A DNA stretch of 64,000 bases from Oleiharenicola sp. (GTDB lineage Bacteria; Verrucomicrobiota; Verrucomicrobiia; Opitutales; Opitutaceae): NCBI GenBank assembly GCA_025363455.1, contig JANYDW010000016.1:1-64000 (forward strand), written 5' to 3'. Below the pieces are notes generated by a model that was not told the DNA's origin, did not search any database, and saw only the letters and a program-made list of their open reading frames with translations. The translations under genes and the position numbers were made by a program. This document shows, piece after piece, positions 50,159 to 61,304 of the stretch (within the stretch, counting starts at the first letter, position 1; the number at the start of each line of letters is the position of its first letter).

Positions 50159-50812
50159 TTACTGGCCGATCTTGAGCAAGTCGGGCGCAGTCCAGTAGCC
50201 AGCGTGATCCGCCACCTCTGCCCGAACCTTGGCGACCGTCTCGGGTTGCACCTCAGGCGCTTTGTTACCCAACTCGGCCCGGACATACGAAAGCACATTG
50301 GCGATCTGCTCGTCTTTCAGGACAGCCCCGAGGGGGGCCATGACGTTGTTGAAATCAGTGCCATTGACCGTGATCGGGCCGTTGAGACCCTGCAGGACAA
50401 TCCGGATGACCCGCTCCTCGGGACCCTGAGCCCACTCGGAGCCGGCTAACGGCGGGTACTGGCCGGGAACGCCGAGGCCATTCGCCTGGTGGCAGGTGGC
50501 ACAGGTGGAGAGGAAAATCTTTTTGCCGAGTTGCGCGCGGGTGAGGGCCACCGCCCCGGCAGCGCCGGGCTTCTCGCGCTTGGCATGCTCGTTGACGACG
50601 AGCGGGTCGAAACGGACGGCATTATGCGCCATATAGATCGAGCCGAAAAACACGGCCGAGCACATCACGCCGAGCAGCACAAGCGGTGTCAGGGAGTAAC
50701 CATCTTTCTTCTCGGGCTTCTGGCTCTGCAGCCGGGCGTGGACCTGCTGGATGCTGTCGTCGGAAGCAGCGGACTGCTCCACCTTGAAATTGTTATCGAG
50801 TTTCGGGCTCAT
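50159..50812 (-). CDS. Membrane-anchored monoheme cytochrome c
   Basis: CATCHQANGLGVPGQYPPLAGSEWAQG; start refined from 50977, overlaps the upstream stop. Confidence 0.85.
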   Translation of the reverse strand: MSPKLDNNFKVEQSAASDDSIQQVHARLQSQKPEKKDGYSLTPLVLLGVMCSAVFFGSIYMAHNAVRFDPLVVNEHAKREKPGAAGAVALTRAQLGKKIFLSTCATCHQANGLGVPGQYPPLAGSEWAQGPEERVIRIVLQGLNGPITVNGTDFNNVMAPLGAVLKDEQIANVLSYVRAELGNKAPEVQPETVAKVRAEVADHAGYWTAPDLLKIGQ

Positions 50813-50813
50813 C

Positions 50814-51608
50814 TTAGTGGCCGCCCTCCTTGGGCTTTTCAGCGGGGGCTGCGGAAGTCTTGGCGGCGCCGGGGGCGGCTGGAGTGGTGGCACCCGACGG
50901 AGGCTTGGCGACCGGAGCAGCTGCTGCCGCCGGCTTGGCCTTGGCTTCGCCGCCTTCCTCGGATACGCCCGGGGCATTCAGGCTGCGCTCGGTGGGATAG
51001 TCGTAGTTGTCCTGCAAACTCCGGAGGTAAGCCACGAGGGCCTCGGCCCGGGCGGTGGGCACGACCTCAAAGCCGGCCACCAGCCCGGCGCTGGCCGGCA
51101 TCTTGACCGCCTTGTAGGAGGATTGGTTGCCCGCGAGCGGGCGCACCTCGAACAGGAAGCGATAAGCCGGCATGCCGTGCGCGAGGGCCTCGCCGGCCAC
51201 CGTGGACTCGGGCGCGTAGAGTAACTTGTAGAGATACTCGGCATCGGGCTGGCGCTTGCCGACATTGCGCAGGTCAGGGCCGAGGCGGCTCTGGCCGATG
51301 AACGTGCTCTGGTCACGGATGTAATCGCGAGCGTAGCTGCCGCGTTCGCCCCACCCGCGCTTGATATCCGGGCCGGTTTCATCATGGCGGACCTGCTGGG
51401 TGTGGCAGCTGACGCACCCGAGATCCTGGTACACAAGGCGGCCCTGATTCGCCAGACCCGAAAGGGGTTGCGGGTTGAGGGTCTCCTCGATCGGGTCCTT
51501 GAACTGAGCGAGGCTACCGATCTGCCGGTGCGCCGCGAGGAGCAGGCCAGCCCAAGAGGTGGCGAGGATCGCGAAAACGCCGAGGAAGAGGGTCAATCCG
51601 TTTTTCAT
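50814..51608 (-). CDS. CcoO-like cytochrome c (cbb3-type subunit II)
   Basis: GRLVYQDLGCVSCHTQQVRHDETGPDIKRGWGERGSYARDYIRDQSTFIGQSRLGPDLRNVGKR. Confidence 0.9.
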   Translation of the reverse strand: MKNGLTLFLGVFAILATSWAGLLLAAHRQIGSLAQFKDPIEETLNPQPLSGLANQGRLVYQDLGCVSCHTQQVRHDETGPDIKRGWGERGSYARDYIRDQSTFIGQSRLGPDLRNVGKRQPDAEYLYKLLYAPESTVAGEALAHGMPAYRFLFEVRPLAGNQSSYKAVKMPASAGLVAGFEVVPTARAEALVAYLRSLQDNYDYPTERSLNAPGVSEEGGEAKAKPAAAAAPVAKPPSGATTPAAPGAAKTSAAPAEKPKEGGH

Positions 51609-53062
51609 GCGTGGCCCTCCTTGGCCGCGAGGCTCAGGGCCGGGGGCGGGTTGATCTGCGCAACGGGCGTACCCTGCGAATTGAAGGGGCAGGCGATCCA
51701 AACAAAGTTGATCAGGAAGGCCACATGGCCGACCAGCAACACGCCCAGCACGACGGAATTGAAAGTATGCCAGCCCGCCAGCGCCCGGGTGATCTCGGCA
51801 AACTTCACCGCGGGGTCATTCAGCAAGTGCCCTTGCTGCCAGCCAGCGGCGGCCAGACCGATCGTCATGAGCACAAGGCCGAGTACCGTGGCGCCGAAGT
51901 GCGCCTGCACGAGGGCGGTCGAGCGCCATTCCTTGCCGGTCAGGCGCGGGAGGAAGAAATAGGCGGCACCGAACATGGCGGTGGAGAAACAGCCGTAGAA
52001 CAGCAGCCAGTCGCGCAGGCCGGTGAGCAGAGTGAACTGGGCGACAGCGGCGAAGCTCCGCAGCGAAAGCGCCAGCCCCAGCACGGAGCTGAGCAGGAAA
52101 CCCGCGATGCTGAGCACGATGAAACGGAGGGTCAGGCTGCCACCGACCGAACCATAGCGGCCGGACAGGGTGCCGAGGAAATTGAGGCTGAGGATGACGA
52201 GAGGCAGCACCAGCATCATGCTGCCGACGATGCCGAGCGTCGGGATCCAGACCGGCACGGGCGCGCCGATCAGCCGGCTGCCCCCGGCAATGGCCGTCGA
52301 GGCCACCAACCACCAGAAACCGAGCGGCGCCAGATAGTAGTTGCTGATCGGCTTGCCGAGCAGCTTGGGCAGGAAGTAGTAGATGGCCGCGAGGGCGACG
52401 GGCGCGAACCACAGGCCGTAGAGACCGTGGACATACCAGGCGTTGACGACGGGCTGAAGCACGCCGCGCACCGGGGCGCGGAAGAGCATCACCTGGGCAA
52501 TGGTGTACAACCACGGGAACCAGAAAGCGGCGCCGAAGAGATACCACTGCGAGGCGTAGACGTTCTCCGTGTTGCGGATGCTAAAGGTGGTGACGACCCA
52601 GACGCCAATGATGGCATACGCCACGAGCAGGATCAGGGTTACGAAGCGCGGCATCTCCAGCAGCTCGAAGGAGGTCGAATAGCCGGCCAGGATGCCACCA
52701 ACGCCTAGAGTGACGCCGAGATTCCAGAACTTGGCGGCGACAAACAGCCAGCCCCCATGACGGAGTGTGGTGGCGGATAACCGCGCCATCAGCCAGAGGC
52801 CGAAGGCGAAAGCGGCGTTCATGCCCCAGCCGTAGACGAGGGCGTTCTGCGCCGCGGGCGCCAGTCGGCCATGGGTGAACCAGGCGCAATCTGCGAGAAA
52901 GGACGGGGTGTGCAGCTGAATGGCCGCAGCCAGCTGCAGGGCTCCGCCGAGCAGCAGCCAGAGCAAAGCCGAACCGAGGAAGACGAGCACAGGCCACTTG
53001 GCGGAGGCGTCGATCTCCGCCTGCTCGGCCCGGGCGTTGGTTACGTTTGAATTCATCGGCAA
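51605..53062 (-). CDS. CcoN-like (cbb3 oxidase subunit I) homolog lacking canonical ligand histidines
   Basis: Multi-TM heme-copper-oxidase-like fold; WYVHGLYG...YYFLPKLLGKP...LSGRY; DWLLFYGCFSTAMFGAAYFFLPRLTGK where HVH would be expected. Confidence 0.75.
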   Translation of the reverse strand: MPMNSNVTNARAEQAEIDASAKWPVLVFLGSALLWLLLGGALQLAAAIQLHTPSFLADCAWFTHGRLAPAAQNALVYGWGMNAAFAFGLWLMARLSATTLRHGGWLFVAAKFWNLGVTLGVGGILAGYSTSFELLEMPRFVTLILLVAYAIIGVWVVTTFSIRNTENVYASQWYLFGAAFWFPWLYTIAQVMLFRAPVRGVLQPVVNAWYVHGLYGLWFAPVALAAIYYFLPKLLGKPISNYYLAPLGFWWLVASTAIAGGSRLIGAPVPVWIPTLGIVGSMMLVLPLVILSLNFLGTLSGRYGSVGGSLTLRFIVLSIAGFLLSSVLGLALSLRSFAAVAQFTLLTGLRDWLLFYGCFSTAMFGAAYFFLPRLTGKEWRSTALVQAHFGATVLGLVLMTIGLAAAGWQQGHLLNDPAVKFAEITRALAGWHTFNSVVLGVLLVGHVAFLINFVWIACPFNSQGTPVAQINPPPALSLAAKEGHA

Positions 53063-53065
53063 GGG

Positions 53066-53371
53066 TTACTTCTTCGCGTGATCGCGGATGGTGAGTTCGA
53101 TCGCGCGGTCGATGGGGAGACGGACCACACCAGCCTTCTGGTCGAGCCAAGCGTAGCTGGCGGCCTCGGCTTGTTCCTTGGTCCGGTGCTCGGCCAACAA
53201 TTTCCTGCGATCATCCGGGGTGCGGACGCCCTCGACCGCCTGCACAGCGGAGGCATGGGGCGTGTAGACCTTCTTCGCCAGCCAGGCAAAGGAGGCAAAG
53301 CATAGGATCACGATCAGGGCCGTGAAGACCGGCGTGCGGTGCGGGAAGGAGAAGTTGGTGGAATCACTCAT
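53066..53371 (-). CDS. Small single-TM protein in the ACIII operon
   Basis: 101 aa, FTALIVILCFASFAWLAKKVY TM; tight spacing with neighbours. Confidence 0.5.
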   Translation of the reverse strand: MSDSTNFSFPHRTPVFTALIVILCFASFAWLAKKVYTPHASAVQAVEGVRTPDDRRKLLAEHRTKEQAEAASYAWLDQKAGVVRLPIDRAIELTIRDHAKK

Positions 53372-53374
53372 GGC

Positions 53375-54664
53375 TTAATGGGCAGCCGGGACCGCGCCGG
53401 ACTCCGGGGCCGTCGCCTCGTGATGAGTGAGCGACTCGACGATGCGGGGATCGCGGATCGGGATGAGTTTGGCGGTGCTGAAGCTCCGCAGGTAAGACCA
53501 GGCACAGATACCGCCGATGCCAACGACCGAGGACAGCACCCACAGAAGGTTGAGCGAGAGGAACGGGAGCGGCTGGTCCTGCTCATCCTTGAGGGCCGGC
53601 AGGACGTTGTAGCAGAGGTCAATGAGGATGACGACAGCGACCACGCAGCTGACGTGCAGCGCGGGCCCGAGGGTGGCCTTGCGGCGGTAGGACAGCCACA
53701 TCAGGAATGGATAAAAGAAGTGTCCGAAGAGAAGCAGCATGCCGACCCAGACCCAGTCGCCGTGCTCGCGGATATTGTACCAGAAAGTTTCCTCGGGGAC
53801 GTTGGCATTCCAGATCAGAAAGTATTGGGAGAAGGTGACGTAGGCCCAGAACACCACGAAGGCAAAGGCCAGCGCCACGAGGCAGTGCAGCTGGTTGGTG
53901 TTGTAAATCCCCTTGTAGTCGCCGCGGTGGTAGAGCCAGAAGGTAATGACCACCCCGATCGCCATGGCGCCGCGCATGCAATTGGCGAAGAACCACACGC
54001 CGTACATCGTGGAGAACCAGTGATACTCAAGGCTCTTCATCCAGTAGATGGCGGCAAAGGACAGTGACAGGGCGGTTAAGACGATGCCGGCTGCAGCCGT
54101 CCGGCGGTTCCGATAGGTCCACTTCGGATCACCGTCGTGGTCCTGGGCGAAGGAAGCCTTGCGGAACAGGGCCGACAGGCCGATCCAGATCCCGAAGAAA
54201 GCCACCGACATGCCCGTGAACATCGGCAGGTTCAGGAAGCCCGACTTCTTCACGTAAAGCGGATCGGTCCCGACCGTGTGACCGCCGTGAATCACATGCC
54301 CGGTGTCCATCCACGGCCAGATGAAGCCGGGCTTCATCCAAGCCGAAACCAGCAGAGGCAGAAACAACACGGCGAGCCACGTGAAGGCCGAGGTCCCGTG
54401 TTCGAATTGGCGGCGGATTACCGTCGACCAGCCCGAATCGGTGAGATGGTGGATGATGATCAGCAGCAACATCCCGACCGCAATCGCCACCCAGTAGGAG
54501 ACGCCGACCACGTACGACAGCGCGACGCCGCGGGCGTCACCGACTACGAGACCGAGCGCGGTGACGGCGAGGCCGGCGAGGCCGGCCATCAGGAATTTGT
54601 TCGCCAGAGAAGCGGTGGCAGCGGCCCGTTCGACAGGCTCAGGGCTATGGACAGGTGCGCTCAT
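53375..54664 (-). CDS. actF: Alternative complex III subunit ActF (quinone-binding NrfD-like)
   Basis: Multi-TM; GWSTVIRRQFEH...NQLHCLVALAFAFVVFWAYVTFSQYFLIWNANVPEET. Confidence 0.85.
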   Translation of the reverse strand: MSAPVHSPEPVERAAATASLANKFLMAGLAGLAVTALGLVVGDARGVALSYVVGVSYWVAIAVGMLLLIIIHHLTDSGWSTVIRRQFEHGTSAFTWLAVLFLPLLVSAWMKPGFIWPWMDTGHVIHGGHTVGTDPLYVKKSGFLNLPMFTGMSVAFFGIWIGLSALFRKASFAQDHDGDPKWTYRNRRTAAAGIVLTALSLSFAAIYWMKSLEYHWFSTMYGVWFFANCMRGAMAIGVVITFWLYHRGDYKGIYNTNQLHCLVALAFAFVVFWAYVTFSQYFLIWNANVPEETFWYNIREHGDWVWVGMLLLFGHFFYPFLMWLSYRRKATLGPALHVSCVVAVVILIDLCYNVLPALKDEQDQPLPFLSLNLLWVLSSVVGIGGICAWSYLRSFSTAKLIPIRDPRIVESLTHHEATAPESGAVPAAH

Positions 54665-54665
54665 G

Positions 54666-55307
54666 TTACTTCAGCCCTCCGCGCTGGTCCGGGGGGACAT
54701 CGTCGAGGGTGCCATGGTGAGAGCGCTGGAGGGCGCGCACGTACGCCACCACGGCCCAGCGGTCATCGGGGCTAAGCTTGTCGGCGTAGGGGAACATCGT
54801 ATTCTTGCCGTTGGTGATGGTGTTGAAGATCTCGCCCTCGGGCATCGTGCGCAGGCGGTCGTCGTGATAGGTCGGGGTGGCGACCATCCCATAGGACTTG
54901 GTGATACCCTGCCCGTCACCGAGCTTGCCGTGGCACGGGGCGCAGTAGATCTCGAAACGGCCCTGCCCGCGGCGAAGGAAAGCCTCGTTCACGGTCAGGT
55001 CCGGCGGAAAGCCGCGCAGGAATGATCCGTCGGCGTTCTTGCCGGCGTAATGGACGTCATCGGCCTTGAGGAAAGCGGGGTCGGCCTGATCCGCGCTCCG
55101 GCCGAAGGGCACGGTGCCGGCGGGGATCGGGCGATCGGCACGGCCGTCAGCGAAGAACTTGGACTCCGCCTGCGGCTTGTATTTCGCCTGGTGGTCCATG
55201 TCGGGGAACAACTCGATCGGCGGGCGGGTGGCGGGCATGCCGCGAAAGCCCATGACGGACACGAGCAGCACGACGAGGAAAGCGAGGGTGTAGTAGGCGT
55301 AGCGCAT
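54666..55307 (-). CDS. actE: Alternative complex III subunit ActE (monoheme cytochrome c)
   Basis: RGQGRFEIYCAPCHGKLGDGQGITKSYGM. Confidence 0.85.
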   Translation of the reverse strand: MRYAYYTLAFLVVLLVSVMGFRGMPATRPPIELFPDMDHQAKYKPQAESKFFADGRADRPIPAGTVPFGRSADQADPAFLKADDVHYAGKNADGSFLRGFPPDLTVNEAFLRRGQGRFEIYCAPCHGKLGDGQGITKSYGMVATPTYHDDRLRTMPEGEIFNTITNGKNTMFPYADKLSPDDRWAVVAYVRALQRSHHGTLDDVPPDQRGGLK

Positions 55308-55308
55308 C

Positions 55309-55839
55309 TTATTCCTCGATTTCGACGATGTCCTTGCCGCCGGCCTTCGCGAGGAGGTCGCGGGTTGCAGCGGCGTTGAATTTCGGGTCGTTGGCCTCGA
55401 TCACAATGTAGAAGCGGTCGTCCAGGGCGCGGACGAATTGCGGGGCCTTCATCACCGGATGGTAGTGCATGGGCAGCTTGTTCAGGAAAAACATGCCGCC
55501 GATTGTGGCGAAGGCCGTGAAGAGAATCGTCAGCTCGTAGGAGACCGGGAAGGCGAACATCGGGCTGAACATTGGCTTGCCGCCGACGACCAGCGGATAC
55601 TCGACCCAGCCCAGCCAGGCGATGAACGACATGCCGGTGCAGAAGCCGGTGATGCCCCCGGCGAGCGAGAAGCGCGGCACCTTGGAGCGGCGCACGCCCA
55701 TGGCGTAGTCGAGCCCGTGGATGGGGAAAGAAGTGAGCGCGTCCCACTGCGAGTAACCGGCATCGCGCACCTGCTCGCAGGCCTGGTAAAACTGCGGGAC
55801 GGTGTCGAAGGCAGCGATGATTCCGAAATTCTTCTTCAT
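55309..55839 (-). CDS. actD: Alternative complex III subunit ActD (DUF3341)
   Basis: FGIIAAFDTVPQFYQACEQVRDAGYSQWDALTSFPIHGLDYAMGVRRSKVPRFSL; start refined. Confidence 0.9.
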   Translation of the reverse strand: MKKNFGIIAAFDTVPQFYQACEQVRDAGYSQWDALTSFPIHGLDYAMGVRRSKVPRFSLAGGITGFCTGMSFIAWLGWVEYPLVVGGKPMFSPMFAFPVSYELTILFTAFATIGGMFFLNKLPMHYHPVMKAPQFVRALDDRFYIVIEANDPKFNAAATRDLLAKAGGKDIVEIEE

Positions 55840-55849
55840 GGCGGATACC

Positions 55850-57283
55850 TCAGTGTTTGGCCGCACCGTGCGGGTCCGCGGCGGGAATGACCGCCTTGAT
55901 CTCCGACATCGGCATGATGGGCACGAAGCGGATGAAGAGGAGGAACAGGAAGGAGAAAACGCCGAAGGTGCCAAAGAAGGTGAAGATCTCGACGATCGAC
56001 GGCGAGTAGTAGCCCCAGCTCGACGGCAGGAAGTCACGGGCAAGCGAGGTAACGATGATCACAAAGCGCTCGAACCACATGCCGACGTTGACGAAAATAC
56101 AGAGAATCCAGACCAGCGTGGTGTTCTCGCGCACCTTCTTAAACCAGAAGAACTGCGGCGTGATGACGTTGCAGCTGATCATGATCCAGTAGGCCCAGGC
56201 GTAGTGGCCGAACGCGCGGTTGATGAACGCGAAGCCCTCGTAAGGATTCGCGCCGTACCAGGCGATGAAGAACTCCATCGAGTAGGCGTAGCCCACCATG
56301 GTGCCCGTCGCCAAAATGATCTTACACATGCAGTCGATGTGATACTGGGTGATCAGGTCCTCGAGCCGGCAGATGGCGCGCAGGGGCAGCATTAGCGTGA
56401 GCACCATGCCGAAGCCGGAGAAAATGGCGCCCGCCACGAAGTACGGCGGGAAGATTGTCGTGTGCCAGCCGGGGATCAGCGAGACGGCGAAGTCGAACGA
56501 CACGATGGTGTGCACGGAGAGCACGAGCGGGGTGGAGACGCCGGCGAGGATCAGGTAGGCCATCTCATAGTTGCTCCACTGGCGGTTGGAACCGCGCCAG
56601 CCCATGGCGAAGAAGCCGTAGATCCGCGCCTTGAACACATTGCCCGCCGCGGTGAAGCGGTCGCGCAACGTGCCGAGATCGGGGAGCAGGCCGATGTACC
56701 AGAAGAGCACCGAGACCGTCCCGTAGGTCGAGACGGCAAACACGTCCCACTCGAGCGGCGAACGGAAATTTTGCCAGATGCCGTTGGAGTTGGGGAACGG
56801 GAACAGGTAGCCCGGCAGCACGGCGAACCAGATGCGGCCGACGTGGAAGACCGGGAAGATCGCGGCACAAACGACGGCGAAAATCGTCATGGCCTCGGCC
56901 GGGCGGTTGATCGAGGTGCGCCACTTCTGGCGCAGCAGGCAGAGGATGGCCGAGATCAACGTACCGGCGTGGCCGATGCCGATCCAGAACACGAAGTTGA
57001 CGATATCCCAGGCCCAGTTGACCGGGTTGGCGTGGCCCCAGACGCCGACTCCGGTCGAGACGAGATAAGTCAGGCCGCCCACCGTGAACGAGGCGACGAT
57101 CGACGCGCAGCCGAAGCACCACCACCACCACACGGGGGTTTTGCCTTCGACGAGGCCACAGATCTTTTCTGTGATCCAGTGAAAGTCCCGGTGATGCTCC
57201 ACCAGGACCGCCCGCGGAATGGGCGCCGGATTGACCTCGGCAAGAATGGCGGGAGCGGGGTGATCAGAAACGTGGGCGGACAT
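55850..57283 (-). CDS. actC: Alternative complex III subunit ActC (NrfD/PsrC-like)
   Basis: [50 protein letters not shown]. Confidence 0.92.
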
Positions 57284-60200
57284 CAGTTATGCCCTCCGTG
57301 TTCGCCGGCGGGTTTCTCCGCCTCATGGCCATGCGCGGCACCGTGCTCGGTGTGGCCGTTCTTTCTATTGTACTCGACGCGGCTGAGAGGGAGCGCGGAA
57401 TAGTCCGGCATGAGCGGGTTCGGGTTGCGGAGCTTGCCGAGGTAGGTGGTGCGCGGGCGGACGTTAAGGTAGCCGAGGACGGCGTAGTCGCGGTCCTGGC
57501 CCTTCAGCTTGGAAACCTGGCTTTCCGGATTCTTGATGTTGCCGAAGACAATGGCTTCGACCGGGCACACCTGCTGGCAGGCGGTCTTGATCGTGCCGTC
57601 GGGAATCTCGACGTCCCCGCTGGCGCCGGCCTTCCGCTTCTGGGCGATCTTGGCCTGTTGGACGCGCTGGACGCAATAGGTGCACTTCTCCATGACGCCG
57701 CGCATGCGCACGGTGACATCGGGGTTCTTCACCATCTTGACCAGCTCCGGCATCTCGTCCTGGTGGCCGAGCGGGCCCATGTAGAGGGCGTCGAGAGCGC
57801 GCTTGTTGAAGTCGAAGAAATTGAAGCGGCGGACCTTGTACGGACAGTTGTTCGCGCAATACCGGGTGCCGATGCAGCGGTTGTAGGCCATCACGTTGAT
57901 GCCTTCGTCATCGTGCACCGTTGCGTTGACCGGGCATACCGTCTCGCAGGGCGCGAGCTCGCAGTGCTGGCAGGTCATGGGCTGCATCGAAACCTGGGGG
58001 TCCTCGGGGAGGATCTTGTTGCCCTCGGCGCCGAAGGCTTCGGGGTCGGCCTGGCCGTCGGAATAGTAGCGGTCGAGGCGGATCCACTGCATCTCGCGGC
58101 CGCGGAGGACCTGTTCCTTGCCGACGATCGGGATGTTGTTCTCGGCCTGGCAGGCCACGATGCAGGCGTTGCAGCCGATGCAGGTGTTGAGGTCGATCGA
58201 CATGCCCCATTGGTGGATGCCGTCGAGGTTGGGCGTCTCGTAGAGGGAGTTGCCGCGGGGAGTCTCAGTGGCGCGGGCGATGGCGAGCTTGCTGCGCTCG
58301 GCGGCAGGCAGTGCAGCGAATTGCTCGGGCGTGTAGTCGCCGTAGACCGCCGGGGAGTGACCCTCCATGCCGATGCCGGTAACGAACGCGGGGTCGGACT
58401 TGTAGCTGTGCTCCCCCTCGTAGTTGGCCTCGCGCACAATGTCGCGACCTTCCATCGACCAGTGCTCCTGGGTGTTGGCGAGCTTCATGCGCGCACCGGT
58501 GTCGCGGAGAGTCGCGCCGGTGGCGAAGCCCATGGCGTCGGTCGTGCGGACCGGGTAGGCGCTGAAACCGGCGCCGGTCCCGATGTGGCCAGACTTGGTG
58601 CGGCCGTAGCCGAGCGGGAGAACAACGGTGTAATTGGCGAGACCCGGCTGGATGTGCACCGGGCCGGTGACTTTGCGGCCGTTGACGGTCACTTCGAAGA
58701 GGCGGGCGTTCTCCTTGCCTTGGTAAAACTCGGCTTCTTCCTTGCGCGCGACTTGCAGCAAGCTGCCGTGGGGGACGATGCCGAGGTCCTTGGCGAGGCG
58801 CGGGCTGACAAGAATGGCGTTGTCCCAGGCAATCTTCGTCATCGGGTCCGGGCACTCCTGCAGCCAGCCGTTGTTGGCGAAGCGGCCGTCGTCCATCTTG
58901 TGGTCCGTGGCGAAGCGGACCTCGAGGTTGGCAGCCGAAAGCGCAACCACTGACGGGTTCTTCGCAAAGGCCGAGCCGGAACGCGCCGGATCAAAGGCGA
59001 CGCTGACGACCGGGTAGGCCGAGCCCGCGAGCTGGCCATCGTGGAGGAACTTCTCAAACGCCTTCTTACCGTCACCGCTGGAAAGCTTGCCGATCGTGGT
59101 GAAGACCTGCACGTAGGCGTCGGGGGTCTCCTCGCCGGCCACGCGGGCCAGCAGCTCGACCTCGGACAGGCCGTTGAACAACGGCATGATCATCGGCTGC
59201 ACTGGCACGACTGTTCCGTCCACCGTGCGGGCGTCGCCCCACGACTCGAGATAGTGCGTCGCGGCGAGGTGCGTGCCCGACAGGGCGGAAGTCTCGTCTT
59301 GGTAGTAGCCGAAGCGGATGACCTCGGGCACGGACTTCAGTGACGCTCCGAACTCCAGATCGGCGGGCGCGTTGTAGGCCGGGTTGCCGTTAAGGATGAA
59401 AAGGGTCTTAACCGCGCCGCCTTTGATGGCGGTGGCAAGGGCGGCAATGGTCGAGGCGGCCGTAGGCTCGACGGCGGCGAAATCGATCGTCTTGCCGAGG
59501 TTGCCGAGGAAGGAATTGATCGCGTAAGCCAGCACATGAACCTGAACGGGCTGGTGGGCTCCGGCGACCACGAGGCTCTCCCCCTTGTGGGCGAGCAGGT
59601 CGTTCGCGCATTCCTCGATCCATTTGTCCTTGTTGGGAAAATCGAGGCCCGCGGTCAGCGAAGCGAACTTGTCCGTCCCGAGGACCTTGTTGGCGAGCGC
59701 GGCGGTGAGCGCCAACATGTGGCTGCTGGCAACGCGCAGGCGATGATCGGCCATGCTGCCGGTGAGGCTGAAGCCGCTCTCCGCCACGTACAGGCGGTTC
59801 ATCGGGTCTTCCGGCTTGGTTACGCGGCGACCCTTGGCGAACTCACGGGCGTAGTAGAGCGAGCCGGCCTCGGCGTGGAAGAAATCGGCGTCCAAGCTGA
59901 CGATGCGCTTGGCGGCGGCGAAACGGTAGAGCGGCTTGACGTTCTGACCGAAAGCGGCCTGCGCAGCGGCGACCGGCGGCTCGTCTTGCACGGGCTCGTA
60001 TTCCGCCCAGATGGCGCGAGGAAATTGCTTCTTCAGGTTCGCTACAAGGCGGGTGCGGGTGGGCGAGGCCGATTCATCGGCCAGGAAGGCGAGACCTTCG
60101 CCATTGCCGGCGTAGGTCTTGTGAATCTTCGCGAGCAGCTCGTTGACGTCGGCGATGTTGAGGGTCTTGGCGCCCGAGGTGTGGGTTGTGGCGCGCTCGG

Positions 60201-60651
60201 GATCGTAGAGATCGAGAACCGAGGCTTGGGCGAGCAGCGTGCTGGCGCCGCCATGCGGGAGGTAGCTGGGGTTGCCCTCGAGCTTCGTCGGGCGGCCCTG
60301 GTGCGTCTCAGCGAGCAGCGGGATGGCCGATTTACGCAGCGGCATCGCGGTGGCGAAATAGAGCGGCAGGCCGGGCACGGTGTATTCGACCGACTTGCCG
60401 TAGGGCAGGATGTGCTTCTCCGGGCGGCGACAGCCGGCGAGACCCAAGCCGCCAAGGGCGAACGAGGCCGCCATCAACCGCATGAACTGGCGACGATCGA
60501 CCCCGTCCATGACGGCGGCGCCCTCGGGGAACTCGCGGGCGAGATGCTCGCGGAAACCGGGCGTGTCGGCCAGCTCGTCGAGGCTCCGCCAGTATTTCGG
60601 GCCGGTTAGCTCGCGTTGCGCGGGGGCGGAATGATCAAATTTGCGTTTCAT
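57283..60651 (-). CDS. actB: Alternative complex III subunit ActB (Fe-S/molybdopterin-like)
   Basis: Tat-like [22 protein letters not shown]; ferredoxin motifs [44 protein letters not shown]. Confidence 0.95.
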
Positions 60652-61304
60652 CAGCGATGGCAGCCGGAGCAGCTGGTGGGCGGCATGACCTTCCAGTCAT
60701 GAATGAATTTCTTGGCGTCCTCAAGGCGGCCCTGCACAGCGAGGGTCGGGGAATCGAGATTAAAGACATCCTTCGGATCGCGGATGCGCTCGGCAGGATT
60801 ACGGTGGCAGTCGAGGCACCAGCTCATGCTGTGCGGCTTGTCCTGGCGGACGACCGTCATCTCGTTGACCTTGCCGTGGCACTCGACGCAGCTGACGCCG
60901 CGATTCACGTGTACGGAATGGTTGAAGTAGACGTAGTCGGGATTGGCGTGGATCTTGACCCACGGCACGGGATCACCGGTGCGGTAGCTCTCGCGCACGA
61001 TCTCCAGCAGCGGGCTCTGGATCTTGATCGCGCTGTGGCAATTCATGCAGGTCTGGGCGGCCGGCACGCTGGAGGTGGCTGATTTCTCGACCGAGGCGTG
61101 GCAATAGCGACAATCGATGCCCAACTGGCCCGCATGCAGGCTGTGTTCAAAGGGAACGGGCTGGACCGGCTGGTAGCCGACGCGCAGGTAGGCCGGCGTC
61201 GCGTAGTAGGTGATTCCAGCCGCCGCGACGCCACCGAGCACGCCAAGAAAGATCAGGATCTGCAGGGGCAGAGCATTGGCTGATTTCGGGAAGATCTTGG
61301 ACAT
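60651..61304 (-). CDS. actA: Alternative complex III subunit ActA (pentaheme cytochrome c)
   Basis: Five CxxCH motifs: CRYCH, CMNCH, CVECH, CLDCH, CSGCH. Confidence 0.93.
   Translation of the reverse strand: MSKIFPKSANALPLQILIFLGVLGGVAAAGITYYATPAYLRVGYQPVQPVPFEHSLHAGQLGIDCRYCHASVEKSATSSVPAAQTCMNCHSAIKIQSPLLEIVRESYRTGDPVPWVKIHANPDYVYFNHSVHVNRGVSCVECHGKVNEMTVVRQDKPHSMSWCLDCHRNPAERIRDPKDVFNLDSPTLAVQGRLEDAKKFIHDWKVMPPTSCSGCHR

Follow-up and report, generated by a model that had tools for sequence, protein, structure and literature searches.

Widespread and probably repeated loss of heme and copper ligands from a cbb3-like subunit I linked to alternative complex III in Verrucomicrobiota, and its plausible retention as a membrane platform

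Alternative complex III (ACIII) has been described from Flavobacterium johnsoniae and Rhodothermus marinus, in both of which it occurs with an aa3/caa3 oxidase (PMC8552683, PMC8361435). For F. johnsoniae, both direct contact between ACIII and the oxidase and other routes by which electrons leave ACIII have been established or suggested (PMC8552683). For verrucomicrobial methanotrophs and Opitutaceae, a C-type (cbb3) oxidase beside ACIII has been noted and is treated as functional (PMC8498564, citing Refojo 2010; PMC6688271).

The locus analyzed here lies in a window of 64,000 nucleotides, namely positions 1 to 64,000 of contig JANYDW010000016.1 from Oleiharenicola sp. (Opitutaceae; assembly GCA_025363455.1). 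On the minus strand the genes follow each other in the order actABCDEF, a small protein, ccoN-like, ccoO-like, and ccoP-like (Table 1), and the actABCDEF set, recognized by profiles and synteny, marks the operon as one for ACIII. The ccoN-like gene therefore sits between a CcoO-like gene and the ActF and small-protein genes, the neighbors that an earlier sequence-only reading had named. The stop of ccoN and the start of ccoO overlap (ATGA), and similarity searches placed the 101-aa protein at this position, after ActF and before CcoN, in most of the syntenic ACIII-CcoN loci. No oxidase gene is present downstream of the operon in the window genome. From the operon linkage we infer an association of ACIII with the N, O, and P proteins.

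Table 1. Genes and ligand-column residues of the ACIII-linked locus in the window
Feature	Position	Strand	Basis or remark
ActA, five CxxCH	60651..61304	-	PF14522, QrcA-like
ActB, molybdopterin-oxidoreductase-like + Fe-S domain	57283..60651	-	Fe-S and TAT-variant domain profiles
ActC, NrfD-like	55850..57283	-	PF03916
ActD	55309..55848	-	PF11821, E 4e-58
ActE, monoheme cytochrome c	54666..55307	-	PF13442
ActF	53375..54664	-	synteny and phmmer between loci; no Pfam/NCBIfam match
Small protein of 101 aa, with an apparent membrane helix at the N terminus	53066..53371	-	no Pfam/NCBIfam match
ccoN-like gene	51605..53062	-	485 aa from TTG 53062; likelier start ATG 53056; stop 51605
R57 (propionate-side Arg) to A68	52859-52861	-	alignment
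H60 (low-spin heme b ligand) to A71	52850-52852	-	alignment
H207 (CuB ligand) to H212, sole ligand retained	52427-52429	-	alignment
Tyr251 (active-site Tyr) to T256	52295-52297	-	alignment
H257 (CuB ligand) to S262	52277-52279	-	alignment
H258 (CuB ligand) to R263	52274-52276	-	alignment
Ser262-Arg263, old H257-H258 columns	52274..52279	-	genus: Arg 18/18, Ser 16/18
H345 (heme b3 ligand) to R350	52013-52015	-	alignment
H347 (heme b ligand) to W352	52007-52009	-	alignment
Arg350-Asp351-Trp352, old H345/H347 columns	52007..52015	-	the same in all 18 sequences of the genus
CcoO-like monoheme cytochrome c, 264 aa, CVSCH and MPAY present	50814..51608	-	FixO PF02433, E 5e-15
CcoP-like membrane cytochrome c, 217 aa, one CxxCH (CATCH)	50159..50812	-	PF00034/PF13442

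The CcoN-like protein matched the COX1 profile (Pfam PF00115) with an E value of 8.6e-44 and 150 bits (cut-off, 34.8), and phmmer comparison with solved cbb3 CcoN chains gave E values of 3e-28 for 9g6b and 2e-26 for 3mk7; collinearity with the cbb3 CcoN structures extends across ~390 residues. By these comparisons, the protein is homologous to cbb3 subunit I, chance resemblance being excluded, and belongs by descent to the heme-copper oxidase (HCO) superfamily. It does not qualify as a heme-copper oxidase in the enzymatic sense, since one of the six heme/CuB histidines is present, and it scored 122.4 bits against the curated ccoN equivalog TIGR00780, for which the cut-off is 583. With regard to the cbb3-type (C) family, the active-site Tyr251, the residue that can be cross-linked to a CuB His, is absent (Thr256 stands in its place), and monoheme CcoO and cytochrome c CcoP partners are co-encoded. 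An identity as NO reductase (NorB-like HCO) was rejected, because its three FeB His and its heme His ligands fall in the same columns, which are lost.

To assign the ligand columns, we used HMMER/MAFFT alignments, with columns numbered according to Pseudomonas stutzeri CcoN (3mk7) and window residues according to the predicted protein (P0001). Six of the seven residues that comprise the six histidines and Tyr251 are gone from the window protein, the survivor being H207. These data bear out what the sequence-only reading had observed, i.e., a CcoN-like oxidase subunit at this very position (here assigned to the minus strand) that has lost the heme b His, the CuB His-His, and the helix-X heme His pair but kept one CuB His. 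For the last motif, that reading had relied on a gapped alignment to DWLLFYGCF, in the place of which HMMER/MAFFT gave R-D-W; the conclusion of loss held, and the alignment with CcoN placed no histidine at five of the six His ligand columns. All 18 aligned sequences of the genus have Ala at the H60 column, and H212 is retained by most of the genus, with Asn or Gln in close sisters. The alignment is anchored by members of the family that bear the ligands: their identity with the window protein is 36-49%, and all seven residues stand at the aligned columns. A misalignment masking shifted ligands was rejected, given that the columns are fixed by these ligand-bearing sisters and that no alternative conserved His was found. 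Loss of the heme b, heme b3, and CuB cofactors is strongly supported, absence of bound heme and copper being what the ligand columns predict. As judged from these residues, the ligandless subunit cannot reduce O2 in the manner of a cbb3 enzyme, in agreement with the earlier proposal that it is not an O2 reductase.

A CcoN-like homologue was found in 50 of the 57 relatives, in a few of which the sole match is a true CcoN, and the family also occurs in Planctomycetota (L055 and L058). Alignment of 77 ACIII-linked CcoN sequences yielded two groups: 17 carry all six His plus Tyr (H-H-Y-H-H-H-H), and 60 have lost the set. None of the latter has more than three of the six histidines, 53 have at most one, and the active-site Tyr is retained in a single sequence. 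Ligands are retained in some Opitutaceae-level relatives (L026-L030). The replacements at the seven columns vary by lineage, for example, FQSSDYY, QQAATLH, SHAAEIL, HSGQKFL, and SESSHFV. Where the sequence-only reading had looked to other ACIII operons for the same substitutions, loss of the ligands proved to be widespread, and the replacements in other lineages are quite different. One family (L095/G067 and L129/G210) has kept the low-spin heme b pair H60/H347 together with Arg57 and has lost the heme b3-CuB center. In addition, a loop cysteine about 12 residues ahead of the lost H60 (Cys59 in the window protein, 52886-52888) recurs in several lineages, in 38 of the 60 ligandless sequences altogether, and is absent from all 17 ligand-bearing ones; a disulfide partner for it was sought, and no consistent or convincing Cys was found.

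These patterns bear on the suggestion of a new redox module in the sequence-only reading, under which the protein would still take part in redox chemistry through a cofactor site that has moved or arisen anew, such as a heme with different ligands, a site for quinone, or a different metal. The new residues R263 and R350-D351-W352 are strongly conserved (18/18), and the family with the low-spin heme b pair indicates that partly redox-active forms can exist. However, the sole column with His in at least 60% of the ligandless sequences is H384, also found in cbb3, the ligandless sequences share no conserved pair of His, Met, or Cys that could serve as substitute ligands, and the replacements differ between lineages. 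The suggestion thus finds little support, and we consider it unlikely.

Each of R57, E122, W203, T215, S240, H337, and Y251 is present in less than 30% of the divergent ligandless sequences, and H257, H345, and H347 are mostly lost too, all of these columns being conserved in the ligand-bearing group; the window protein itself retains E122. In terms of the cbb3 structures, the lost columns correspond to ligands, to residues on the propionate side, and to most positions of the K pathway. By contrast, 85-100% of the divergent ligandless sequences retain the Trp, Pro, and Gly positions of the fold, and Y223 and H384 are also among the retained columns. Since Y223, a K-pathway position, is present in 98% of them, the subunit might have been kept as a proton or ion pathway or as a conformational coupling element for ACIII after electron transfer was lost, and energy conservation by ACIII is itself unsettled (PMC8498564). 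Nevertheless, T215, S240, and Tyr251 of the same pathway are lost in most ligandless sequences, and this explanation appears rather improbable to us.

Bona fide oxidases were then sought elsewhere in the window genome, and they are present, as the sequence-only reading had thought worth checking. The genome encodes CoxBAC on contig C62, the CoxB of which bears a CxxCH toward its C terminus, and a CcoNO fusion with all ligands, which is split between the ends of C68 and C10; a search of this genome for cytochrome bd subunit I found none. In none of 37 genomes was the ligandless form the only HCO, whereas the ligand-bearing form was so in 3 of 14 (Fisher test, p 0.017, with no correction for kinship). 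In G046 (99% complete) and G191 (98%), the ligand-bearing form is the only HCO subunit I recognized, and cytochrome bd had no match in either genome; thus, the ligand-bearing ACIII-linked form is probably a working oxidase. G041 resembles these two genomes but is 80% complete. A CoxA gene directly follows N-O-P in seven loci outside the window's family, six of them ligandless (L099, L105, L106, L107, L108, and L110) and one ligand-bearing (L093), and at an eighth locus (L101) CoxB alone was detected after N-O-P.

Additional HCO copies were seen in some relatives. At L120 (G033:C1:3318500-3338000), a second ligand-bearing CcoN copy lies beside CoxA/CoxB without ACIII genes, and the ACIII operon of the same genome carries a ligand-bearing copy as well. 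Two Opitutaceae-level genomes (L084 and L085; contexts L121 and L122) encode yet another C-type-like HCO, complete in its His residues and the Tyr, which adjoins a CcoO/CcoP-like diheme cytochrome and is distinct from both canonical CcoN and the ACIII-linked group.

Could the ligandless subunit be a neutral leftover of a lost oxidase, which the operon has yet to shed? Divergence of N relative to Act has a median of 1.00 in ligandless and 0.56 in ligand-bearing lineages (p 9e-7, with kinship not corrected), and the faster evolution of N would suit such a relic, as would the many other oxidases in the genomes concerned. Yet pairwise dN/dS of the ccoN-like gene, estimated by simple NG86 on GC-rich DNA, was 0.08-0.31 for close pairs in the genus (0.59 for the deeper pair L045/L049), and wherever a genome of the genus had a match, the gene was free of internal stop codons. 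This purifying selection on a stop-free gene rules out a pseudogene and largely refutes the relic, and persistence over families and orders of the phylum is too long for an unselected membrane protein. We therefore regard a neutral leftover as very improbable; the faster change of ligandless N looks like the loss of heme constraint on a fold that is still selected rather than a dead gene.

The number of ligand losses was estimated from trees of the operon genes. The tree from concatenated ActB-F places the two ligand states in sister position several times: L092/L096, L115/L102, L114/L091, L090 with L100 and L109, and L093 with L095, L101, and L108. Unordered parsimony on this tree gave 8 changes, and 11 losses were counted when regain of the seven residues was disallowed; collapsing weakly supported branches left the figure the same, although the collapse was perhaps ineffective. 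The CcoO+CcoP tree also interleaves both ligand states, in agreement with Act, and one single loss was rejected by the AU test on the Act alignment (p 1.5e-5 with all ligandless rows; p 1.4e-4 with the 25 nearest). The CcoN tree, in contrast, groups most ligandless sequences, with 2 losses as resolved and ~4 ligandless groups as supported. Of three Act-type sister pairs tested against it, two were not rejected (p 0.18 and 0.11) and one was (p 0.026). The conflict between the Act and CcoN trees could come from long-branch attraction, from convergence, or from an exchange that affected only the N gene. Given the counts from the Act and CcoO/P trees on one side and from the CcoN tree on the other, at least two losses are secure and about 8-11 likely. 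An HCO subunit I without cofactors is widespread in Verrucomicrobiota and probably of multiple origin.

The explanation that we find fairly likely is that a degenerate cbb3-like core has become a cofactor-free membrane platform, docking CcoO and CcoP to ACIII and passing electrons to other oxidases. Such a scaffold role is plausible and fits several lines of evidence: ligands and active site were lost together, the gene is under selection, Act-N-O-P synteny holds in divergent genomes whichever the ligand state, the CxxCH motifs of CcoO and CcoP are present at every locus in which those genes were found, and other oxidases are present. The ancestor would have had an ACIII-CcoNOP complex, with menaquinol oxidized by ACIII and electrons delivered via the cytochromes c to a working O2-reducing center. 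In this genus, as in many lineages related to it, all three cofactors (heme b, heme b3, and CuB) would have disappeared, but the membrane protein would have stayed, along with its two cytochrome c partners. The ligandless subunit would then dock CcoO and CcoP to ACIII, and the electron path may run from ActA/ActE to CcoO, on to CcoP, and finally to a separate oxidase. In the window genome this is presumably caa3-like CoxBAC or the cbb3 enzyme of the distant CcoNO genes, and in several class-level relatives the CoxA-type enzyme encoded directly downstream.

Several observations count against the platform. CcoO and CcoP have membrane anchors of their own and may thus not need one, and the variability of H212 in sisters and the lack of a trailing oxidase gene in the window operon also weigh on the negative side. 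Furthermore, the CcoO axial Met column, which lies in a gappy region of the alignment, is Met in 35 of 42 loci, and the seven exceptions are all ligandless. These seven (L049, L056, L097, L098, L100, L105, and L117) retain CxxCH; a ligand swap or misalignment is possible, and relaxed constraint, which would tell against the platform, might be involved.

More tentatively, and with somewhat less confidence than doubt, we propose that the O2 center of an ACIII-linked cbb3-like oxidase has been dismantled repeatedly, ~8-11 times, with the protein and the cytochromes kept as supercomplex adaptors and with one intermediate carrying low-spin heme b only. If true, there would be a class of cofactor-free HCO subunits acting as adaptors between ACIII and other oxidases. 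A catalytic core turned structural, with ligand-bearing sisters at hand, would make it possible to separate the parts of a supercomplex that serve assembly from those that serve chemistry.

PmoA (PF02461) was detected in six class-level genomes and marks them as those of verrucomicrobial methanotrophs. Five of the six (G096, G108, G125, G197, and G309) have an ACIII-linked CcoN-like gene, ligandless in every case, and no other convincing CcoN was found in these five, the top TIGR00780 score being 34 bits versus the cut-off of 583. Automatic annotation and published accounts that see a "cbb3 oxidase" in the ACIII-linked genes of Opitutaceae and of verrucomicrobial methanotrophs would credit many species with a high-affinity oxidase. 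Such an oxidase cannot come from a ligandless locus, and predictions of microaerobic physiology are affected accordingly.

Compared with the known systems, the published C-type oxidase next to ACIII in methanotrophs and Opitutaceae has the same arrangement, an Act operon and then cco-like genes, and is most likely the same locus; the difference is that the active site is absent in the five PmoA-bearing genomes and the window genus. Going by the residues it encodes, the ACIII-linked locus in these genomes cannot provide an O2-reducing center, and our literature searches, the coverage of which was incomplete, found no report of the ligand loss. With cbb3 CcoN/CcoO/CcoP (P. stutzeri 3mk7/5djq and 9g6b), the window locus shares fold-level homology, the N-O-P order, a monoheme CcoO-like protein, and a cytochrome c CcoP-like protein, but it differs in the loss of five of the six His plus the Tyr, in the linkage to ACIII, and in a CcoP-like protein with a single heme motif. 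With the ACIII systems of F. johnsoniae and R. marinus, it shares the ActABCDEF set, a probable role in quinol-to-cytochrome c electron transfer, and a partnership with a terminal oxidase, known in those systems and presumed in the window, whereas in the window an inactive C-type core and two cytochromes c occupy the place at which the oxidase is expected.
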